Shown here piece after piece: positions 1,096 to 45,485 of a stretch of DNA of 64,000 bases. Origin of the DNA: Thuidium tamariscinum. Its lineage: Eukaryota > Streptophyta > Bryopsida > Hypnales > Thuidiaceae. Position 1 is the first letter of the stretch. Every line of letters starts with the position of its first letter. The stretch lies in NCBI GenBank assembly GCA_947034885.2, contig OX344754.2, positions 2,294,001-2,358,000 on the forward strand. Direction: 5' to 3'. A program made the position numbers and the translations under genes. The notes under the pieces were generated by a model, which searched no databases, was not told the origin of the DNA, and saw only the letters and a list, made by a program, of their open reading frames with translations.

Positions 1096-1780
1096 TGTAC
1101 AAAATTCCCGGGAAGCGGTGTCGGGTAGAGAGGAGCGCGCTTAGGGAACACGCGGGGTGTCTGGCTGCAAGTCGTTGAGTCAGTGACAGGTAATGTCGAA
1201 AACTCGAATCTTCACTCGATCTTCGCTTCAATCTTCTATAGACTTATCTTGTGGTGGCTCTATGGGGCCAAAGGTAAGGGTGTGTAATAAGAAACAAGGT
1301 TTCGGACAGGTAAAACGGGACGGCCAACACGAGTGACCGTCCGGATGATGGGCCCCTAAACTTCAAACCCACGATGACCAGGAAGCGCCTTTCATCAATG
1401 GGAACAACATAAAAGATCGACCATGCGGGCCATTAACCCCACTTCGTCGCCACAAACACAAAACGGGGCTAATAACTGTCATAAGAATGACTCCATAGCC
1501 CGCAACCAAGTTTACAATGCAAAAATTGAAATAACAACTAGCCTCCAAAACCGGCTAGGAAAAACAAGAAAATCACAACGAGCCTCCAAAACCGGCTAGG
1601 AAAAACAAGCCACAAGCCACACACACGAATCTTCAATCTTCTTCCCCTTTGAGTCCCAAATCTTCAACCTTGAGTCTTGAGAACTTCTTTCACTTTCAAA
1701 CTTGAAGAAATCTTAACAAAAACTAAGTAAAACTAAGTTCTATACAAGCTGCGACCTTCCATCCACTGTCACAGGTGCTC
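1096..1780. other. Leader-like stretch of mixed composition with a short direct repeat
   Basis: Between the coiled-coil frame and the 180-bp repeats lies a stretch clearly richer in G+C (about 1105-1560) than its surroundings. At 1541-1568 and 1582-1609 a 28-bp segment beginning GCCTCCAAAACCGGCTAGGA is repeated directly with a period of 41 bp. No convincing coding frame is seen. If the LTR reading of 3129-3400 is right, this is untranslated leader of that element. Confidence 0.4.
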
Positions 1781-2600
1781 TAGGAACTCAAATGCTAAGT
1801 GCTTTAGCAATTTAGAAAGCTAAGAGCACGAACTAATCACTCACAAAATTTGAGCCTATTCTAAGATACTGTCCAAAAGTTATATGAGAGCAAAGTTGAG
1901 GTCCTCCTCCTTCTTTTTAAATAATCACTGCCTCTTTATATCTCAATAACTTTTGATTAAAAACTCCAAATACTAAGTGTAAGAGCAATTTAGAAAGCTC
2001 TCAATAACATCTATAACTTGTGAAAATATCACAATGATCTAAGATATTGTCCAAAAGTTATGAAAGGTAGAGTCTCGGCCTTCTCAAATAAGAAGGTATG
2101 AAATTCTCCAACCTTTGATATTACATAACTTTTGCATCACAACTCCAATTCATACAAATAAACTCAATTTGGAAAGATAAAATGATGATCTATCACGTCT
2201 CAAAGTTTCAATTCCATAAAAGAAACTGACCAAAAGTTGTGGTCGTTGAAGATACAGCCTCCCTCCTTCAAGTCCAAACTTCACTCTAAAGTTTGTCACC
2301 TCATAACTTTTTGATAAAAACTCTAAACGGTAAGTGTCATATCTTTTTAGAAAGATACACACAAGGAAAATACACCCTCCAAATCTCAAGTCAAACAAAC
2401 AAGTATTACAAAAGTTATAGCTTGTTGAAGCCTTTGCCCTCTCAATGGAGATCCTTGGGTCTTCACAATTTCAAACTCTCATAACTTTTGACACTCAACT
2501 CCAAATTCAACTTGTGAACACTCTTTGAAAAGCTCTAAACACAAAAAATGTCATGTCAAAATTTCATTACTCAATTCTTCATGCTCAATGAGCTACATCA
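1781..2600. repeat. Five degenerate tandem repeats of about 180 bp
   Basis: Units begin near 1781, 1963, 2137, 2315 and 2497, giving spacings of 182, 174, 178 and 182 bp. Each carries the same order of words: ACTCCAAA-like start, then TTTAGAAAGCTC or a variant, then about 70-80 bases on CAAAAGTTAT(G), then a CTC-rich stretch, then CATAACTTTTG. CAAAAGTTAT and ATAACTTTTG are reverse complements, so each unit could form a hairpin. Units are strongly diverged, so the array is old. No continuous reading frame crosses it. Confidence 0.75.
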
Positions 2601-3128
2601 ACCCGAAATTCGGCCAAAACTCCCCAAAACACACACACACTTCTCTCTCTCCACACATCATCTAACCAAAAAAAACTCCCCATGAAAAAACTCTCCAAAC
2701 TCCCCTAAGAGGAGGAAGAAGAACACTCACCAACTCTAAGTTAAGTGGGAGATGCCCAAATGGATCTCCAAACAACTATTGTCCAAAGGAAAAGAACAAG
2801 AACATAAGTTCAAGTTTACTCTCCAAAGCTAATGAAACTCAAGATCAAACTAAAAAATAAACTAATTCTAACTCATAATCTTATCTTCTAAACATATGGA
2901 TAAAATTTAAGATTAAAATGAGATATTAAACTTCAACTAAACTAAATGGAGGTAAAAACTAAAGTCAAAGAAGAATCCTAAGACTCTAAATCTCATGACT
3001 TCATAAAAACCCTCTAGTTCAACATTTTAGTGTTGAACTTCAAACCTAAATATAGATTCTAGAACTTGAATTCTAAAATCTAATTTGAATATAAAATACG
3101 TATACATTTTAAATAATGTATGCATTTA

Positions 3129-3400
3129 CATCACGACAACGGCGCCAAATGTCGAGCCAAAAAGAATAACAACCCGGATAGGATTGTCCATTTTTCTTGT
3201 AGTATAGTAGCAAAGGTTCATTCGCTAGGAATTTTGTAATCAAATAGGAAAAATTATGAATAAAATATAAATAATATAAACTAATCATTAGATTTGACAC
3301 ATTGTCCATTACAAATTGTCAAAGAATATGAAACCAAACACAAATCAAACACAACCACAAGAATAATAAATTTTATTACAAATTCCAATAATCAATTTCT
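3129..3400 (-). mobile_element. LTR end and tRNA-Asp primer-binding site of a fossil LTR element
   Basis: On the minus strand 3147-3129 reads TGGCGCCGTTGTCGTGATG, matching the complement of the plant tRNA-Asp 3' end (TGGCGCCGTTGCCGGGG), the primer site of Athila/Tat-type Ty3 elements. Just upstream the minus strand ends GGCTCGACA, an acceptable LTR terminus in CA, so an LTR should occupy 3150 upward and the internal region should run toward base 1. The far LTR end was not located. No polymerase region is in the window, so the element is partial as seen here. Confidence 0.55.
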
Positions 3401-6229
3401 TAGCTCCAAAAACAAATCAAGAGAGAGGGTTAGGAGAATGTCAATTTGTCTTACCTATATATCTAAACAATAAGACAACTATTTGCCTTGAAAGGACTCC
3501 AAGAGAATTTGCCACCTTTCTAATTTAGTCTTTATAGAGCTTTCTATATCTAAGGCATATAAAATGACAATTAGCCAATTATCCTCTATAAATGTGAAAA
3601 CGATTTGATAATTGGTCTCATTTTATATAGAAAATGACAAGTAATCAAAAACAAAAAAAATCTACTTGACTACACCCCCCTACAGTTGTAGTACACTACT
3701 ATGTGCATTTATAGAATTGTTTCTAAAAACTTTGACTTGGCAAGTAAAAAGAGTACATTCTATTAAGGCCAAAAAAATAAATTAGAGGCCCACTCTATAC
3801 AAGGACAACAAATTATATTGTTCCATCCAATAATGTATTGCACAATTCATAGTTTTTTGGTTAATTCTACATTTAATTTCATACAAGTTATACACTTGCA
3901 TAATTTCCAAGATACAAGAAGTACTTTGCACATGCTCATACGAGTTTTTTGCCTTGTCTAAAAACCTACAAAATATCACCTCTACATTAAAAAAACTGAA
4001 AAATAATTATATTCTGATAATGACAATCAATGTCTATAGTTTCTATAAAAATTTGAAAATCTTTCCTTTTGAATTGACTTCTTAGACCCTACATCCATTA
4101 AAAAAATTCCAACAACCAATTGGCCTTTTTCATGTTCAATGTCTTCCATTTGCATCACTCACCTTACCTTCTCTACACTTCATGCTTGCTTCAAATGTAC
4201 TGGATTGAATTGCAATAGTTTTGTAGGTGGAAATGTGGGATTCTAAACTTAAGATTGTTGCACTTAAAGCCCTAAAGTATTTTCTCCTTTGCATATGAAA
4301 CTATAGAATCTTGCATGAATTTAATATGCACTTATATAGAAGAAATCTCATAAATTCTAATATATAAGCATTCCAAATGACTTAAAGAATTTTTTATGGC
4401 AACTTCTCAAACCTCATTATAAAACTTTCTATCCTCCTAATTTGAACCTCAATACTAAGTCTCCACATTTACAAGGTGGGAAAACAAATTTTAGAATTTG
4501 ATAGAAAAACACCTTACCACTTCAAGAACCAAGGATTTTATTTTGTTGAAAACACTCAAAATTGCCATTTCTATTTCAAATAGTTTAATGGAATTGAATT
4601 GAAAATTATTATTTATGAACATCTTATTACTAGATATTACACTTAATTTGCATGACAATGGATGGAATGAATATCCAAAATTTTGACAATTCAAATTACA
4701 AGATTCTTACGTTTAGAGTGAAGAAAACAATTCTCTTAGCACATACAAAGACTATGCTTTTGGACTTCACACCTTCTTTATTTTAAAATATGCCACCATT
4801 CAATTATGAGTTTCAAATCTTTATAGAAGAAAACTTGGTTGAGATTCTAGAAATAAAATAATCCACAAAAATCTATTATTTATTTTTTTAAATTTGTTAG
4901 ATAGAAGTATTTATGAGTTATAAACAAAACCTAAATTAATAATGTCTACAAGATGACAAAAGAATTACTAATGAGACTGCCATAGATGAGTTAAGTAGCA
5001 TTGTTGTGTGAACAATGAAAGGTTCTTATTGAAAATTTCATTTATAAGATTCAAAGACTTTAAATTCAAAATATTCAAAGTGAATATCAAAGTCCATCAA
5101 AATGCAAAATATTCAATTCTTATCTGCTTCAAAACCAAATTATTGTGATGTATAATAATATAAATGCATTATATATCTTTTGTACATCATTTTAATAGTT
5201 TTCTAGCGACATGAAGGTCAACTCTAATTAACTAGTAATATTCTGTAAGGTGACTATTGCAACACTTATCTTCTTTGAGATCTAACCTTAAAAAAACTAC
5301 ACAAAATTATATAGATATTTAGTGCATGATTTTAGATACATAAAACACTATCATGGAACACTAAAGGATATTTTGTGAAATGAATTGTCATAATTTACAA
5401 ATAAAATAAAATAAAAGCACAATTTATATCCTTGAACTTGTCTATGACTCAATGTATAGATGCTAGACTTTCCAAAAATTTCTATAAATTCCAACATTTT
5501 TTTTCCTTATTAGAGCCGGTAAACACTTGCACTTCTCTACTTCTTTCTATTATTTGAGACAATTTCAATATTGCAAAGAATCTACATAAATTCTTCTAAA
5601 AACTATCCCATTTGTAGAAGTTTCACTTCCTTTTCTTGAAAACATTTACATGTCATTTTTTTCCACCTAAAAAATTTTAGCAACTTCTTCAAAATGTAAT
5701 TGTTTGGTATCTGACTTGGAGGTGGTTTATCCTTTATAATTATACCTTCCAAGTATATTTATAAATAAATAAATAATTTTTAATATATGCTTTCTCAATC
5801 ATTTATTATCTCACTTTCCCTAAGGTGTAGTTATAGACAAGAAATGAAAAATTCAAATCTATCATTATGAATTATTTCTAACTTACAACTCTTTAATTGA
5901 TTGACTTGTTGACCAATTGATTCTTCTAATTTCAAAGTCTTACAATAGATTTTTATGAAAGTCAAGAAATTTTTTATAATGTCCAATAAAACTATAACTT
6001 TCGAGATTACTCAGGTAGGTAAGTATATACATATAATGCCTTCAAAAAATATAGTTTTCAAATCAATCTACATTTGTGATATATAATCATTTTTTCCTAA
6101 GCACAATATGTATTGTGCTTCTGTGCATTCACTTAAAAACTTTGTACACTAAATTTTCACATGGAGGGGCTTAAATTCTTTTAATGAAAAATCAAATGAT
6201 GAATTTTTATTTAACCTATGAAGCTTTCT
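3401..6229. other. AT-rich intergenic DNA, nothing assigned
   Basis: Short frames only, none with domain-like composition. The first few hundred bases may be the rest of the LTR whose end lies at 3150. No inverted-repeat ends were recognised. Confidence 0.5.
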
Positions 6230-6720
6230 TTCTTTCAAAAATAGTTTACTATCCAAAAACATATCCAAATTAAATGTTATATTATCTAGTTTGGAGGTTA
6301 TTAGATCTACCCTAAACCTAAGAAACAAATTTAGAGGACAAATGTAGATGACATGGTCTTCTAGTAGATATGTAGCTCTCCATTGACAGAATTTTAAAAC
6401 AATGTATTATTTTATGTTGTGGGAGTCAAGAAAGTGAGTTCCTTTGTGCTTACATTTTGAAAGGTAAGAAGTATTATTTTACTAATTTGTTTGATAGATA
6501 ATCATGTCATAAAGTTTTTTGAAATGGCCATATATGATGTTATGTGAATGTACCTTGTTTTTGCAGTTTTTCCTAATCAAAACATCACAACATGTTTTTT
6601 CTTGAGACTTGGCACTTTACTAGTTCTCCTTCTTTCATGTTTTTTATATGGAATTCCTTCCTTGGGTACCTTTGTCTAAAAGATGTATACATTTGCAAAC
6701 TACATGTACATTACAAGGTG
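6230..6720 (+). mobile_element. Old diverged copy of inverted-repeat family A (no ends seen)
   Basis: The order of words matches the interior of the clear copy at 42430-43152: AAAAATAGTTTACTATCC, then CATGGTCTTCTA, then GTGAGTTCC..TGTGCTT near AAGTATTATTTT, then AATGGCCA, then CTTGGCACTTT..TAGTTCTCCT. The terminal GGGTGATTGCAAG motif is not visible, so this is an eroded or truncated relative in the same orientation as that copy. Confidence 0.6.
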
Positions 6721-8064: not shown

Positions 8065-8149
8065 ACCTCTAAATGATGAACTAAGTATGGATGAAGACAT
8101 ACACAGAATTGTCGGAACAAAAACGAAGGAAAAGATTTAATCCTCTGTA

Positions 8150-8881
8150 GGGTCATTGCAAGAAAGACCGACCGATTTATGTAGCGTTTTCCACGGTACT
8201 GCTGAAATTTTTGGGAGTACTGTATAATTAGAAAAAAAAAATTTAAAAATATAAAAAATATGTTTTATGTATATACCTCTAAGAAGAAGGTATACTAGGA
8301 AGGAATAGTGTAGAAAAATTCTCTAAGTAGGAGAACTAGAAAAGTGCAAATTTTCATGAAAATAGGTACTTTGACATTTTAATTTGTAAAAAATAGGGAA
8401 TTTTTTTTAAAAAAAAACTAAAATTTTTCAATTTGGTAGAACTTTATGATGAAGAGATTTCACCAAAAGAATGATCTCAAAACCATCTTAAATGTTCAAA
8501 AGTATGCGCACAAGGGAGGCATGTTCGTGCACATGTAGAGGAAAGAGAATAATGATTTTTGAGATTTCCTTTGGCAGAAACATGACTACCTAGTATGGAA
8601 ATAGGCCACAAAAATTTCAGCTTTAGATCATTAATTTTGGATTCTCCCTAGTACTAAAAACCCCTAAACCGCAAAGTGTGACAAATTAGCTTAATTGAAA
8701 TTTAATTATAAAATGATTTTTGAATTTTTTTGAAAAATAAGGAATTTGATTATTGTCATATCAGACATCTTCAGTCAAAATTTCAAGTTAATATGATTCA
8801 TACTTTAAAAGTTATAATCAATAACAACTCCGTCATTCAAAGTGTGACGCAAAATAGTACCGGTCTTTCTTGCAATCACCT
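8150..8881 (-). mobile_element. Family A non-autonomous DNA transposon, copy 1
   Basis: Ends read GGGTCATTGCAAGAAAGACC on the left and, reverse-complemented, AGGTGATTGCAAGAAAGACC on the right. They are flanked by the 4-bp direct repeat TGTA (8146-8149 and 8882-8885). The length of 732 bp matches copies at 23520 (729) and 42430 (723). Interior words (CTAAGTAGGAGAACTAGAAA, AAAAGTTATAATC) are the reverse complement of those in the 42430 copy, so it lies inverted relative to that copy. No transposase is encoded. Confidence 0.85.
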
Positions 8882-8885
8882 TGTA

Positions 8886-23450: not shown

Positions 23451-23519
23451 ACTGATTTCATATTCTTTGAGTGAAATTGCAATTGTTTTTGTTGCTTAAT
23501 GGAATCACTTCTTGTACCT

Positions 23520-24248
23520 GGGTCGTTGCAAGAAACACTTACCGGTTTTGGCTCAAAATGGCTCAAAATCAATGAGTCCTGTGAGTCCTGTGACCCTTTG
23601 AAATAAATTTTTTTTAAATTGAAAAAAATATGGATAATTTGAAGAGCAATGAGAATATTATGTCTCTTGAAATTCAGACCTAAGAAATTTTTTCTCTAAA
23701 TGTTATAGACAATGGAAAATGCAATGAAAATAGCTCTTTTTTCACTAATTTGGTAAAAATAGTCAAAAAATTCAAAAAAAGAAAATGAAAAATCCTTTTT
23801 TTCTTCAATTAAAGGTATTTCTTTTCCAACAAATTTCATATTTGGAAAAAATAAATTCTATTCTCTACACGTGCGCAAAGTCAGCCACTTTGACGACATG
23901 TGGAAGTTGGACAGTTTAATATTTTCAAAAATCCTTTTTAGGGATTGTGTAACTATACTATATATCTAAGCATGCCAATTTTCAGCTCAAAATTTGCATT
24001 TTTGGGTCAAAAATAGGACTAAAAACCCCCCAAAATGGCCAAGGTAGACAGCCAATCGGGGTCAGTTTAAAAATAGTAAACTAATTTTTAAAAAATTGAA
24101 GAAATTAAACAACATATAAAACTTTTGTGCTCACCTTCATTCCAAATTTCAAGTTGATAGGGCAAACTATGCAAAAGTTATAAGCAAAAAACTACCTGTT
24201 GGAAGTCAAGGGGACAAAAAATAGGACAAGTGTTTCTTGCAATCACCC
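23520..24248 (-). mobile_element. Family A non-autonomous DNA transposon, copy 2
   Basis: Begins GGGTCGTTGCAAGAAACAC and ends, reverse-complemented, GGGTGATTGCAAGAAACAC. It is flanked by 4-bp repeats ACCT (23516-23519 and 24249-24252). Length 729 bp. Same orientation as copy 1 (GCAAAAGTTATAAGC near the right end). It sits inside the decayed Harbinger block and is therefore younger than it. Confidence 0.85.
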
Positions 24249-24800
24249 ACCTCTTCAATTCCTTTCTTGTCTTTGCCAACATACTGTGGTTTTTATGCCT
24301 TTATGGTCCTTGCAATGCTATGTTTGTCATGCATGCTTTATGAAGCGTTAATGAGAAAGCAAATGTTGACATTATAATTTGTCCGTTTGCCAGAGGAGGG
24401 CTGTCTACTTTGCCAGCCAAAGATCAACATGAGGATCTATACCTACGGTATAGGCCGTCAGAGCTGCAAGGAGAAATGGATGGCGACGAGGACGTCACAA
24501 CCAAGGGATTCATTGCAGTAGGAACTTATGAGAGCACGGACATGGGACACACAAGGGTCACATGAAAGGCTGCAGTGCCTAGATTTGGTGACATGAATTT
24601 CGACACAAATAGCGTGGGAAGAGTGCATGACGACAGGGATGAGATGCAACATCATGGGTATGAAGATGTCACGACGCTTGAGAATCGCTATGGGAGGTAT
24701 GGATTGGACTCCGGCAATTTTGAAGACTCCTAGGGATGCCACACTGCAGGCAATGCGAACTTGGATTTGAATATTGCTTTCTTTGAATCCTAAATTCTCA

Positions 24801-30362: not shown

Positions 30363-33300
30363 TCAAGCCTCCGTGCTGGCTCCCTTCAATGACCACATAT
30401 ATTCAATCAGGTCACCTCGTAAGTTGTAGTAGGCATCTTCATGTTCAATATGAAAAGTGCCCATGACTAATTGGTCATACGTGAAGTCCCATTGCACATG
30501 TAAAAGTTGATGACTGTAGATTGGCAAATCAAGATCTTCATTTTCTTCATCTTCTAGAATCATGTTGTGTAAGATGTAGAAAGCCAACATGATGTTTGTA
30601 ATGCATTCCACACTCCATTGTTTGCAAGGATTTTGAATTATTGCGAAGTGCACTTGCAAAACCCCAAAGCAGTGTTCAACATCCTCGCGAGCGCTTTTTT
30701 GTTCTTTTGCAAAGTGCGCTTGCTTAGCATCATCAGGCGCAAGCAATGTTTGTACAAAGTGTCACAATCCGAAAATGTCCAAAATATAGTGTTATATTAT
30801 ATCTTGCTAGAATAATCCGATTCTTTGATTTTTTTTGAAGCTTAAACATAGGAGTAGGACAAATTAGAGCATTTTATTGTTTAAGGGGTTCCGAAACTAG
30901 AAATTCCAGAACTATGATCCATATTCCGGAAAATCCGAAAACAATCCGGAAAGAATCCGGATCCGGATTTCTAGGGATCCGGAAATTTAGGACTTCCGGC
31001 TGTGAATGTTCTAGATATGGATTAGCAAACCATAGGGTCTCTTGATTGAGACAAAATGGTTAAGGAGGAAGATTACATTCTTTGTCTTTACCGGAAACCA
31101 GAACCCAGATAGTAGTCCAAAAGTATTTTGGTACTATCAGCACTGGATCCGGAAATATTTAGGAACAGAAATGTTCCGTAAATATTGACGATTCAGATCC
31201 GGAATGGATCCGAAATGGACCCGGAATGGGAGATTTGGACCCAAGCGGCAATCAAGACTACTCTAGTTTACGAAGGCTTTTTGCGAAGACACCAGGGAGT
31301 CAAAGTGGGAGCAGTTTGAAGATGGCGCATTGGAAGAGGTAGCTAAAGGCTATTTCCACTTAGTTAAATTTTAGAATCTGAATCCGATTTTCCGAATGCG
31401 GATCCGGATTCCGGATTTCTAGGAGTTCCGGATTTTTAGGAGATCCGGATTTTTAGGGACAGTTGGTTGTGACCATTCCGGATATCTTGGGGTGTTCACT
31501 AATTGGTTGCCCTAATTTCCGTGGTTCCTTTTTGGCTTGTTAGGGCGTTGACTTTTGTTTTGATTTGGACTTTTAAGGGGCGGGCAAGTTAGTTGGCCTG
31601 TCATTCCTTCCTAGTGCATATTCCATTGTATTTCATTCCCTTCTTTAATCTGAACCGGCGGATGGACATTCCAGCTCTGACTTATGTTTGAGTCTCTCTT
31701 GGTGTGTTTGTTTGAGCGTTGAGAGGCAAGAAGGACGGGTGAGGAGGAATCCGGATACTTAGGCAACTGAGGTCTGAACTGAGTGACCAGTTTTTTAGAA
31801 CTTGGGTTTAGAATTGTGCGTTTGTGCGTGGAGCCTTTAATTCGTTGGAACGGCAATCCGGTGTGAGCGTGGAGGAGGTTTCGGAACCACGGGGGTGGAT
31901 CCGTGCGGAGCTAAGCAGCCGTCAAGAGGAAAGTTTCCGTCCACCGGAAGGTCTGCCAACCACTAAGTCGATCCACCGATCTAGGGAAGTACGTCCTTTT
32001 GGGCTTCGATGCCTTTGGATCTGTCGTTGTAGTAAGGGTGAGTGAAAGTAGTCTTGAGTGACCTACTAACCGGATTGGCCAAGATCCATCCGGGAAGTTG
32101 TGAGGATCCAGATCTGCCCCTAATGCAACATCGGATATATTTGGGTGTCTTTGTGTGTTTTGTTTGAGAGGAGAGAGCGTGAGGTTTACGAGTGGTAAGT
32201 CCCTACCCCTCTAAAGAACAAGAGAGGACCCCCTGAGGGTAAAACAGGGGTATCTAAAACTAATTATTGAGTGACGGAACCGGAATCCGGATTGAGACGG
32301 ATCTGGAAAAAGGTGTAATCCGGATCCGAAGCGGATCCGGAAAGAGTGGAGAGACGGATCCGGAATTCTGGGAAGGAATCCGAACACAAGGTTGTGTTCC
32401 GGAAGAAAGTAATAACTTAGGGATTTGGGGGGTGAAAAGCCTAGAAACCGGAAAACGCAACTATTAGTAACGTCTGGAATCTCCTGGGACGATATTCCGT
32501 GTCATATTATCACGTTTGGGTGTGATAAAGGTGCTTTCTGCTAGACTGCGCGTACGACACAAAGCAGGCCCAAGATGGATATATCCCATCCGCCAATAAA
32601 TAATAGCGGTTGTATTGGACTCCATTTACAATGAAATGCATATCATGTCTTTCACTGGTGAGCATATTACACACAAGAGGGCTTCGATTTAGAACATTTA
32701 TATCATTGTTGGCACCAGGAATCCCGAAGAAAGCATGCCAAATGCGCAAATTCCTGTCTACCACAGCTTCCAAAATGATGGAGTTGTAGCCATCCCTATT
32801 TCCACAATCTTCTTGCCATGCCACTAGGCAGTTTTTCCATTTGTAGTGCATGCAGTCAATGGAAGCGAACATTCCTGGCCAACCTTGTTCTACATTGATA
32901 GCCATTTGTTTTTGTAAGTCTGCTCAAGTAGGCTGCTTCAAGTAAAAAGGCCCAAATTTTGCACGAACTGCTTTGCAAAAGCGTTTCATTATCTCTATTG
33001 TTGTTGATTCTACTAGTTTGCAATATTCATCTACAGCATCAGCACTAATCGCATACGCCAGCATTCGCAGAGCAGCTGTGCATTTCTGCAATGAAGAAAG
33101 ACCTAATTTCCCAACAGCATCATGTTTATGTACAAAGTATCTGTCATAGGCACAAACCCCATCCATAATAGACAAGAACAACTCCCTCCTCATTCGAAAG
33201 CAACGCTTGAACATTGATGGGCCATAAACGGGGTTTTCAGTAAAATAATCTACAAAAAGTCAATCGTGCCCATCTTCTCTGTCTCTATCTAAATTGCCCC

Positions 33301-42189: not shown

Positions 42190-43325
42190 ATGGGAAGTAC
42201 CAAAAAGTCATTTTTTTTTTCCAACTCCATCGCCCTAGAAAATTCCTTGTTGGGTTCTGGATTTTGGACCTCAAAAAAAAATTTCAAAGTTTCAAATTTT
42301 TTTTGGAAGATATTGAGAGGCCCTTTAGAGATAGTACGGCTTGAAATTTTAAAATATGTTAACTACACTTCCACGGTCATAGGTCCACGGTCATAGGTCC
42401 ACAATCATGGGGCTGAAATTTTACTATAAGGGTGATTGCAAGAAACACTTGTCCTATTTTGTGTCACACGTCGCATTCTGATTTGTTTTTTGGCCATAAC
42501 TTTTGTGTTTTAGCTCCAATTGACTCAAGATTTGGAGGGAAGGTGCTCATAACTATCATAAACCTTCCATAATTTTTTCATAATTTTCAAAAATAGTTTA
42601 CTATCCATAAATAGACCCCAATTGGATGTCACACTTGGTAGTTTAGGGGTTTTCTATACCTGAGCTATACCTTTTTTTAATGATTTTAACATGAAATTTG
42701 GATGAGATGGTCTTCTAAAAGACTTCTAGCTTTCTAGCGAAGGATTTTTAAAAAAAGTTAATTTTGTGAGGTGTGGAAGTCTACAAAGTGAGCTCCCTTC
42801 TGCTTGTATTTTGAAACATATAAAATATTATTTTGGTGGTTTTTTTGGTGAATGACCATCTCTATAAAGTTGTCGCAAATGGCCACTTTTTATTTTTTGA
42901 AAATATCTATTTTTACTATTTTTCCCTAATTAAAACATGAAGATATGTATTTTCTGGAGGTTTGGCACTTTTCAAGTTCTCCTACTTAGAGAATTTTTCT
43001 ATCCATTTCCTTCGGTCAAAACCTTCATCTTAAAGGTATATTAACTATTTATATTTTTCAAATTTTTTAAAAATTAATTTTCTAATTTTAAAGTACTCCC
43101 GAAAAAATCAGCCAAACGCAACAAATAGGATAGGTGTTTCTTGCAATCACCCATAAGCAGATTTTTTTTAAATGACTTCACTTTTTTTTCTTTTGACCTA
43201 AAAAATTTTAACTATAAATAAAAAATTTTGGTTAGTTCTTTAGGCTCACAAGACTTATGCTCATAGCTCTTAAGCTCATGCTTTTAGGCTCACAAACTAG
43301 CATCGTTGTATTTGTGGCTTGTATT
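42190..43325 (-). mobile_element. Family B repeat, copy 4, split by family A copy 3
   Basis: 42190-42429 and 43153-43325 together match 13060-13535 block for block. The split falls exactly at the family A insertion. The copy also carries a local duplication of CACGGTCATAGGTC at 42373-42400. Confidence 0.85.
42430..43152 (+). mobile_element. Family A non-autonomous DNA transposon, copy 3
   Basis: Begins GGGTGATTGCAAGAAACAC and ends, reverse-complemented, with the same 19 bases. ATAA flanks both sides (42426-42429 and 43153-43156). Length 723 bp. The host repeat's other copy (13371-13385) shows the site without insertion, which confirms both the boundaries and the 4-bp duplication. No transposase is encoded. 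Confidence 0.92.
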
Positions 43326-44440: not shown

Positions 44441-45485
44441 TGTAACCAACCTTTTTTTTGTCTATGTCTTGATTTTTGGCTTTGCAATGTAGGCTAAAAC
44501 TTTGAGGGAAAGTAACAAAGAGGCTAAAATCTATCAAATTGTGCAAATTTTGCTCATAAATGTAACATTTGCTATATGTAACCATATACAAATTTATGTC
44601 ATTTGAACTCTAAAAAAAAAAAAATTCTTTGTACATCACATAGAAGACTTCTTTGTGCATACATTCTAAACATCCAAAATGCTTTTTACGAGTTTAGTTT
44701 TTGGTGAAATCTCATCTTCAACAAATTGTTATTTTTTTTAATAAATGCTTTGGCTATTTTTTGAACACTTCTATTGACTTATTTTTGGATATAATTTTAA
44801 GGGTATATTTCTCTTAGGCCTCAATTTTTAGAAGTATGTATTATCTGTAGACTTCTACTTATATGCTATTTTATTTTATTTCAAAAGCCAATAATAATGT
44901 GAGACTATTTCCAACAAAACCAACAACATATATTTTATATTTCATAGGTAGGAAAAATTGACCCCCTTTTATTTCTCTACATTAGGATACATGTAAAAAT
45001 ACCCCCTATTTTGTGCCATCTATATTTTATATTTCTTCACCTACCCTTGCTAATGTTGGGCCTTTAATTGCAAAGATGAATTTAGATTTGCAAATTTTAA
45101 CATAGGTAGCAAATAAGAAATTTTAGTATTTTTTGTAAGAGTAAAATCTAGCAATAAGGGTGCCAATTCTCTTTGGCCTTGCCTATTTCATGCTTTCCTG
45201 TATTCAAACAATTCTATATTAGGGGTAGTTACACCTTCTTCACTGTACTAAAATTCTCTAAAGAATGAGAAAAAAGAAGAACCAATAGGTAGCCAAAACT
45301 CACAAAGGAGATATGAACTCCTCTAGATGTGAGTAGACAATGGATATGGAAAACGGAGGGCACAAAATACTAAAAATCATGCAAAAGTATTGTAGTGTAC
45401 TAGATAGAACCAATTAGAAGAAGCAAGTTAGGCAACATAGGTGGTGAAGGAACCAACGAGAAGAAGATAGTGGCCCTATGAGTAG
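44441..45485. other. AT-rich intergenic DNA, nothing assigned
   Basis: No gene or repeat boundary recognised. Two C-rich words (GACCCCCTTTT near 44960, ATACCCCCTATTTTG near 45000) faintly resemble element ends, but no partner was found. Confidence 0.4.

Follow-up and report, generated by a model that had tools for sequence, protein, structure and literature searches.

A diverse group of ~730-bp non-coding elements with 4-bp target duplications, probably large MITEs, in the moss Thuidium tamariscinum

The window analysed here is a stretch of 64,000 nucleotides from the moss Thuidium tamariscinum (contig OX344754.2, positions 2,294,001 to 2,358,000 of assembly GCA_947034885.2), and the genome assembly searched alongside it spans 363 Mb in 19 contigs. 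Dynein heavy-chain exons are present in this genome (9 matches, all over the cut-off); flowering plants are not known to have dynein heavy-chain genes. The exons therefore speak against a flowering plant and, taken together with the receptor-kinase-like frame mentioned below, suggest a seed-free land plant. An initial annotation, made from the letters of the window, had placed three transposon copies at 8150, 23520 and 42430, with the target duplications TGTA, ACCT and ATAA, and an eroded relative at 6230. All of these are present: the three copies measure 732, 729 and 723 bp, have paired inverted ends and stand between exact 4-bp direct repeats, and the relative is real and extends over 6233-6693.

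6233..6693, no strand assigned: eroded interior of a related element, nearest to the subfamily-C lineage
8146..8149, no strand: target duplication TGTA, left
8150..8881, plus strand: non-coding element of 732 bp, subfamily A (cluster 11), ends GGGTCATTGCAAGAAAGACCGACC / AGGTGATTGCAAGAAAGACCGGTA
8882..8885, no strand: target duplication TGTA, right
23516..23519, no strand: target duplication ACCT, left
23520..24248, plus strand: non-coding element of 729 bp, subfamily B (cluster 4)
24249..24252, no strand: target duplication ACCT, right
42426..42429, no strand: target duplication ATAA, left
42430..43152, minus strand: non-coding element of 723 bp, subfamily C (cluster 6), terminal inverted repeat of 30 bp at 93%
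43153..43156, no strand: target duplication ATAA, right

The ends of the three copies had been described as shared, and this is correct for GGGT[C/G][A/G]TTGCAAGAAA, which is common, but GGGTGATTGCAAG is not found in all of them. In the 8150 copy the right end is ...CACCT, probably through mutation. Comparison of the copies with one another gives ~70% identity between those at 8150 and 42430 over part of their length only, and the main part shared by those at 8150 and 23520 is a terminal stretch of ~120 bp. Rather than forming a single tight family, the three window copies each lie in a subfamily of their own. The best match of the eroded relative is an element at locus L030 (75% over 305 bp), and a search of 6233-6693 for the end motif with up to 3 mismatches revealed none. 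When the window was queried with 54 of the 56 elements collected below (2 doubtful ones excluded), no further region was found at E 1e-8 or better, and weaker short matches were seen, for example at 44654-44720.

The 19-mer end pattern GGGTSRTTGCAAGAAASAC has 8,597 exact matches in the genome, of which 4,250 are forward and 4,347 reverse, and the reversed pattern, used as a control, has 0. A rough estimate of ~9,300 elements genome-wide, which would together make up about 2% of the genome (7 Mb), is based on 20 sampled elements near one end of contig C1, 6 of which have both ends exact. Of 6,043 candidates for the 8150 copy, 40 were scored, and 39 of these, not counting the copy itself, match it over nearly the full length at 93-94%. 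A literature search with four end 13-mers, for which most subscription journals were outside reach, found no transposon context; the matches obtained were to work about an algal photoreceptor and about the growth of yeast.

For analysis of the target sites, nearest opposite ends lying 300-1,300 bp apart were paired with no duplication filter, in loci of at least 1 kb and in the window. The resulting 56 distinct end pairs are a non-random set: they were drawn from loci that resemble the 8150 copy, from the exact ends listed first for C1 and from a few additional stretches. An exact 4-bp duplication borders 45 of the 56 pairs, an exact 3-bp or 5-bp duplication borders none of the 56, and an exact 2-bp repeat is seen at 8; the numbers expected per shuffle when flanks are shuffled among elements are 0.85 (4 bp), 2.02 (3 bp), 0.06 (5 bp) and 5.78 (2 bp). 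The 11 pairs without an exact 4-bp duplication comprise 5 with one mismatch and 6 with at least two, and among these 6 the pair at L125 is false and that at L053:4250 may be false. At L026 and L049, inspection by eye finds an identical 4-bp repeat when the flanks are read one base farther from the element. The 45 exact duplications comprise 30 different 4-mers; they are AT-rich, and A or T is the first base in 40 of the 45.

Comparison with unoccupied sites leads to the same duplication length. At L047 and L040 an element is inserted within another repeat of the same group, and when the flanks are joined minus one 4-bp copy they align through the junction to uninterrupted siblings. At L002 (1-2491), two complete GGGT elements interrupt a copy of a DUF7869 gene, and the end of a third borders this copy; the gene bears stops, and its likeness to the protein at L125 resumes beyond the insertions, at residues ~947 and ~984. 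With 45/56 exact 4-bp repeats, 0/56 exact 5-bp repeats and two empty-site comparisons, the 4-bp duplications other than TTAA that were initially seen in three copies find support in genome-wide copies. The annotation would have been contradicted by duplications of another length or by ends that do not coincide; both were checked in these copies and neither was found.

The elements are steady in length and diverse in sequence. Lengths fall between 711 and 756 bp in 45 of the 56, and a divergence limit of 20% sorts these 45 into 12 clusters, with mean divergence of 8-16% within clusters (five clusters with at least 3 members) and identity of 44-80% between them. Both ends and a few interior blocks are the best conserved parts, and some modules are common to several lineages; subfamilies A and B, for example, share the terminal stretch of ~120 bp. 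The defined DNA-transposon family that the initial annotation called "family A" is supported, and what had been taken for one family becomes one MITE group of ~12 subfamilies. A long-repeat subfamily of ~1,080 bp (representative 1,079 bp) is a palindrome that is 94% identical to its own reverse complement. Among 11 representatives compared, long arms are confined to this 1,079-bp palindrome and an 804-bp relative, and the others have a terminal repeat of ~20-30 bp or none above threshold. Single-strand folding with DNA parameters gave z of -5.55 for the 8150 copy and -3.92 for the 42430 copy against 20 shuffles each, such that both are more stable than their shuffled counterparts.

Do the interiors retain traces of a gene? 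The longest stop-to-stop stretch in the accepted elements is 103 codons, and no clear three-base codon periodicity was found in 8 pairwise comparisons, in which the lowest p was 0.050, a value seen in two comparisons that share one sequence. Neither periodicity nor stop-to-stop lengths support a coding relic in the interior. Non-coding lineages that align at only ~45-55% overall are nonetheless all close to 730 bp long. That length should vary so little among non-coding subfamilies of such different sequence is a puzzle that bears on what a transposase requires of its cargo.

Terminal inverted repeats at both ends, the absence of coding capacity and a target duplication of fixed length with an empty site are among the features by which MITEs are recognised, and these three are found here. 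We therefore take the elements, with a probability of about 0.9, to be large MITEs, that is, non-autonomous cut-and-paste DNA transposons of ~730 bp, and infer that they move in trans by a DDD/E transposase. A transposase encoded elsewhere would bind the terminal repeats of the GGGTSRTTGCAAGAAASAC-ended elements and excise the element, which would then be inserted into target DNA, mostly AT-rich, whose two strands are cut at positions 4 bp from each other, and repair of the gaps would leave the 4-bp duplication. Such movement probably came in several waves spread over a long time, as the divergence of the subfamilies and the nesting of copies suggest. Spread of a repeat with common interiors by segmental duplication, without transposition, would agree with the high copy number but is exceedingly improbable, because flanks differ among copies and a separate 4-bp repeat borders most of them.

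Tourist, Stowaway, hAT-type and Mutator-type MITEs of plants have duplications of 3, 2, 8 and ~9 bp, respectively. Like the present elements, these MITEs are short and non-coding, with inverted ends, high copy number and nested insertions; the elements described here differ from them in their 4-bp duplications and, at ~730 bp, are larger than most MITEs, which are mostly under 500 bp according to the accessible text of PMC10741241. Foldback elements are similar to the long-repeat subfamily in being near-perfect palindromes, whereas most other representatives here differ from them in being without long arms. The group is large, diverse and of an ordinary type; what sets it apart is the 4-bp duplication, the number of copies and the constancy of their length. 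Since 4-bp duplications other than TTAA are uncommon among plant DNA transposons, the 19-bp end motif together with the 4-bp target rule provides a handle for finding the transposase, and the family allows a test of whether the genomes of seed-free plants have been shaped by Sola or by an enzyme yet to be described.

Which enzyme moves these elements? The initial annotation had called the superfamily open and proposed looking for a longer autonomous element with the same ends and a transposase frame. No autonomous copy with GGGT ends was found in ~300 kb of sequence (overlaps included) and in partial end lists, and for this reason the superfamily still stands open. After removal of duplicate ends and of self matches via overlapping loci, 131 of 135 distinct ends lead into an interior for which a second element of the group provides a match of 150 bp or more. 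The four that do not are L022:2442 (a copy cut by GC-rich sequence), L022:563 (the L040 element), L051:7511 (doubtful) and L125:1553. Long-TIR ends were listed at 106 places, and among the first 100 there are 64 that have no exact partner. For 60 of these, the sequence 1.0-1.16 kb inward was searched for a partner end with at most 4 mismatches, which was present in 43 and absent in 17. One of these 17 reads all N, and 3 of the 17, read for 3 kb, have an element-like start followed by unrelated sequence with no recognisable transposase. The first 100 of 430 places with a 34-bp end pattern contain one pair 0.72 kb apart and one 24 kb apart.

Three longer candidates for an autonomous copy were rejected. 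The 2,426-bp element at L039 proved by eye to be a 732-type copy with an inserted element that bears an 8-bp repeat; the insertion (~901-2590, ~1.7 kb) has the ends CCCGGGTAGATCACT and the 8-bp repeat ACTTTATG, likewise read by eye. A 15-kb end pair on contig C4 consists of two ~1.08 kb elements that flank a host-like gene and further elements. The 1,037-bp element at L040 belongs to the group and carries a different, very common repeat of 348 bp, which is located at ~1718-2065 of that locus.

Sola is reportedly described by Bao and colleagues in a paper of 2009. We hypothesize that the moving enzyme may be of the Sola kind and not of a rarer or undescribed lineage, a tentative assignment to which we would give somewhat under even odds. 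The 4-bp target duplication that characterises Sola is present here, and the available portion of PMC10741241 credits Sola with 4-bp duplications, very variable ends and inverted repeats of 11-1124 bp. The duplication length and the stated variability of the ends fit the present elements; in contrast, no Sola transposase was linked to the GGGT ends. The same portion of that source reports Sola in the moss Physcomitrella and as uncommon in flowering plants (PMC10741241). In Repbase, as stated in the accessible part of PMC4455052, a non-autonomous element is assigned by its terminal bases 1-11, which have to align with those of an element already placed in the superfamily; the rule allows one mismatch at most and requires an equal duplication length. 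The family is not filed under Sola here.

An alternative hypothesis is that the mover lies outside the superfamilies described as making 4-bp duplications and represents a new cut-and-paste branch, rare or already lost in this genome. We consider this unlikely; if true, the non-coding passengers of a new branch would have reached roughly nine thousand copies and kept ~730 bp despite interiors that have diverged past easy alignment.

Plant PIF/Harbinger transposons make 3-bp TWA duplications. It is rather improbable that the mover is a PIF/Harbinger-IS5 type transposase with relaxed 4-bp targets. Such an enzyme would accord with the 0-4 bp duplications given for the PHIS group overall in the accessible text of PMC10045372, and among 20 scanned frames 2 match PF04827 and 2 match PF13359, the matched frames being, we infer, those of the window at 30366-33259. 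However, the exact 3-bp repeat expected of PIF/Harbinger was found in 0 of the 56 pairs, and the window fragments at 30366-33259 have no convincing inverted ends. On the minus strand, these frames resemble a broken PIF/Harbinger transposase.

DUF7869-type domains may occur in transposons. Two DUF7869 loci are referred to below.

L125, 1576 onward (C10:10095075-10119502): giant DNA transposon with AACAC[AC]CAATTAGACATTCTTGCACTTG ends
L124 (G000:C2:19309200-19315400), 1363-4284, plus strand: DUF7869 protein of 974 aa

Could the mobilising transposase come from a lineage not described for 4-bp duplications, such as a further branch of DUF7869? We regard this as quite unlikely. This genome is rich in DUF7869 genes (855 candidates, of which 150 matches were scored); they lie in large repeats, and many have long open frames. 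At L125 a 1,069-aa DUF7869 frame is found ~340 bp away from a GGGT end in which the element-like sequence is limited to 24 bp, an arrangement expected of a partner. Among the flanks of 12 further copies, 2 (L126 and L134) resemble the GGGT end, with only 1 of 500 shuffles as good, a count uncorrected for the 12 tests; for the other 10 flanks, however, 60-358 of 500 shuffles are equally good. The 1069-aa type has inverted ends of its own, AACAC[AC]CAATTAGACATTCTTGCACTTG, with 25 exact matches, 12 of which form six inverted pairs 15-24 kb apart, and each pair, the L125 copy included, encloses a DUF7869 match. These pairs indicate a giant transposon with its own ends and not a partner of the GGGT elements, and the DUF7869 transposon at L125 was rejected as a partner on this basis. 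In 43 non-self alignments the GGGT start at L125 is never reached, and 33 of the 43 begin just inside, at query 171-180. L125 is also the one site in the genome where ATTGNARGAAAC and CAATTAGACATTC are 2-32 bases apart. With up to 3 mismatches allowed, 6.9 kb at the 974-aa type copy of L124 contain no GGGT end. At the L125-type junction, 12 copies have the common start (A)ACAC[AC]CAATTAGACATTC with small differences. Most likely, the giant DUF7869 transposon at L125 sits inside the end of a GGGT element; 700 bases further beyond L125 contain neither a GGGT end nor element sequence. The resemblance of L126 and L134 to the GGGT end reflects either chance or insertion into such ends.

Ginger-type elements, moved by an integrase-like transposase, had been suggested together with Sola. 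Ginger elements can yield 4-bp duplications according to the accessible parts of PMC10741241 and PMC10045372, and Ginger1 and Ginger2 share this possibility with the present elements. The ends expected of Ginger are TG..CA (PMC10741241, as far as available), whereas those observed are GGGT..ACCC, and none of the 45 exact duplications is CCGG or CCGT, the targets for which Ginger1 is specific in the accessible text of PMC2836005. A Ginger origin is very unlikely. Of the two suggestions, Ginger1 fails on ends and targets and Sola fits the features that could be checked.

The duplications of hAT, CACTA and Harbinger transposons are 8, 2-3 and 3 bp long. Those of Mutator and Tc1/Mariner are 7-12 bp and TA (PMC10741241, available portion). 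None of these five duplication lengths agrees with the 4 bp seen here.

Further features were observed at the loci examined. The L124 transposon has 10 other copies at 99-100% over ~4.87 kb and apparently moved very recently. Its type has the right boundary ...AAGGCCTT, and upstream of its DUF7869 frame the near-palindrome TATCTTCGASTCGAAGATA occurs at six places (424-1151); these repeats may be transposase binding sites. A literature search for "DUF7869", for which most subscription journals were outside reach, found nothing. The giant DUF7869 transposons measure 15-24 kb, and a size of up to over 15 kb is stated for Sola in the accessible text of PMC10741241, a comparison that is worth a look. 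Contig C11 (17.5 of 363 Mb) holds 47 of the 150 scored DUF7869 matches and is perhaps a sex chromosome. A very common short repeat, a palindrome of 226 bp, lies at L125 5735-5958. A 214-aa frame at L048 (1370-2011, minus strand) matches nSTAND3 NTPase weakly, below the cut-off (E 0.00076), and a frame like that of a plant-type receptor kinase was recognised by eye.
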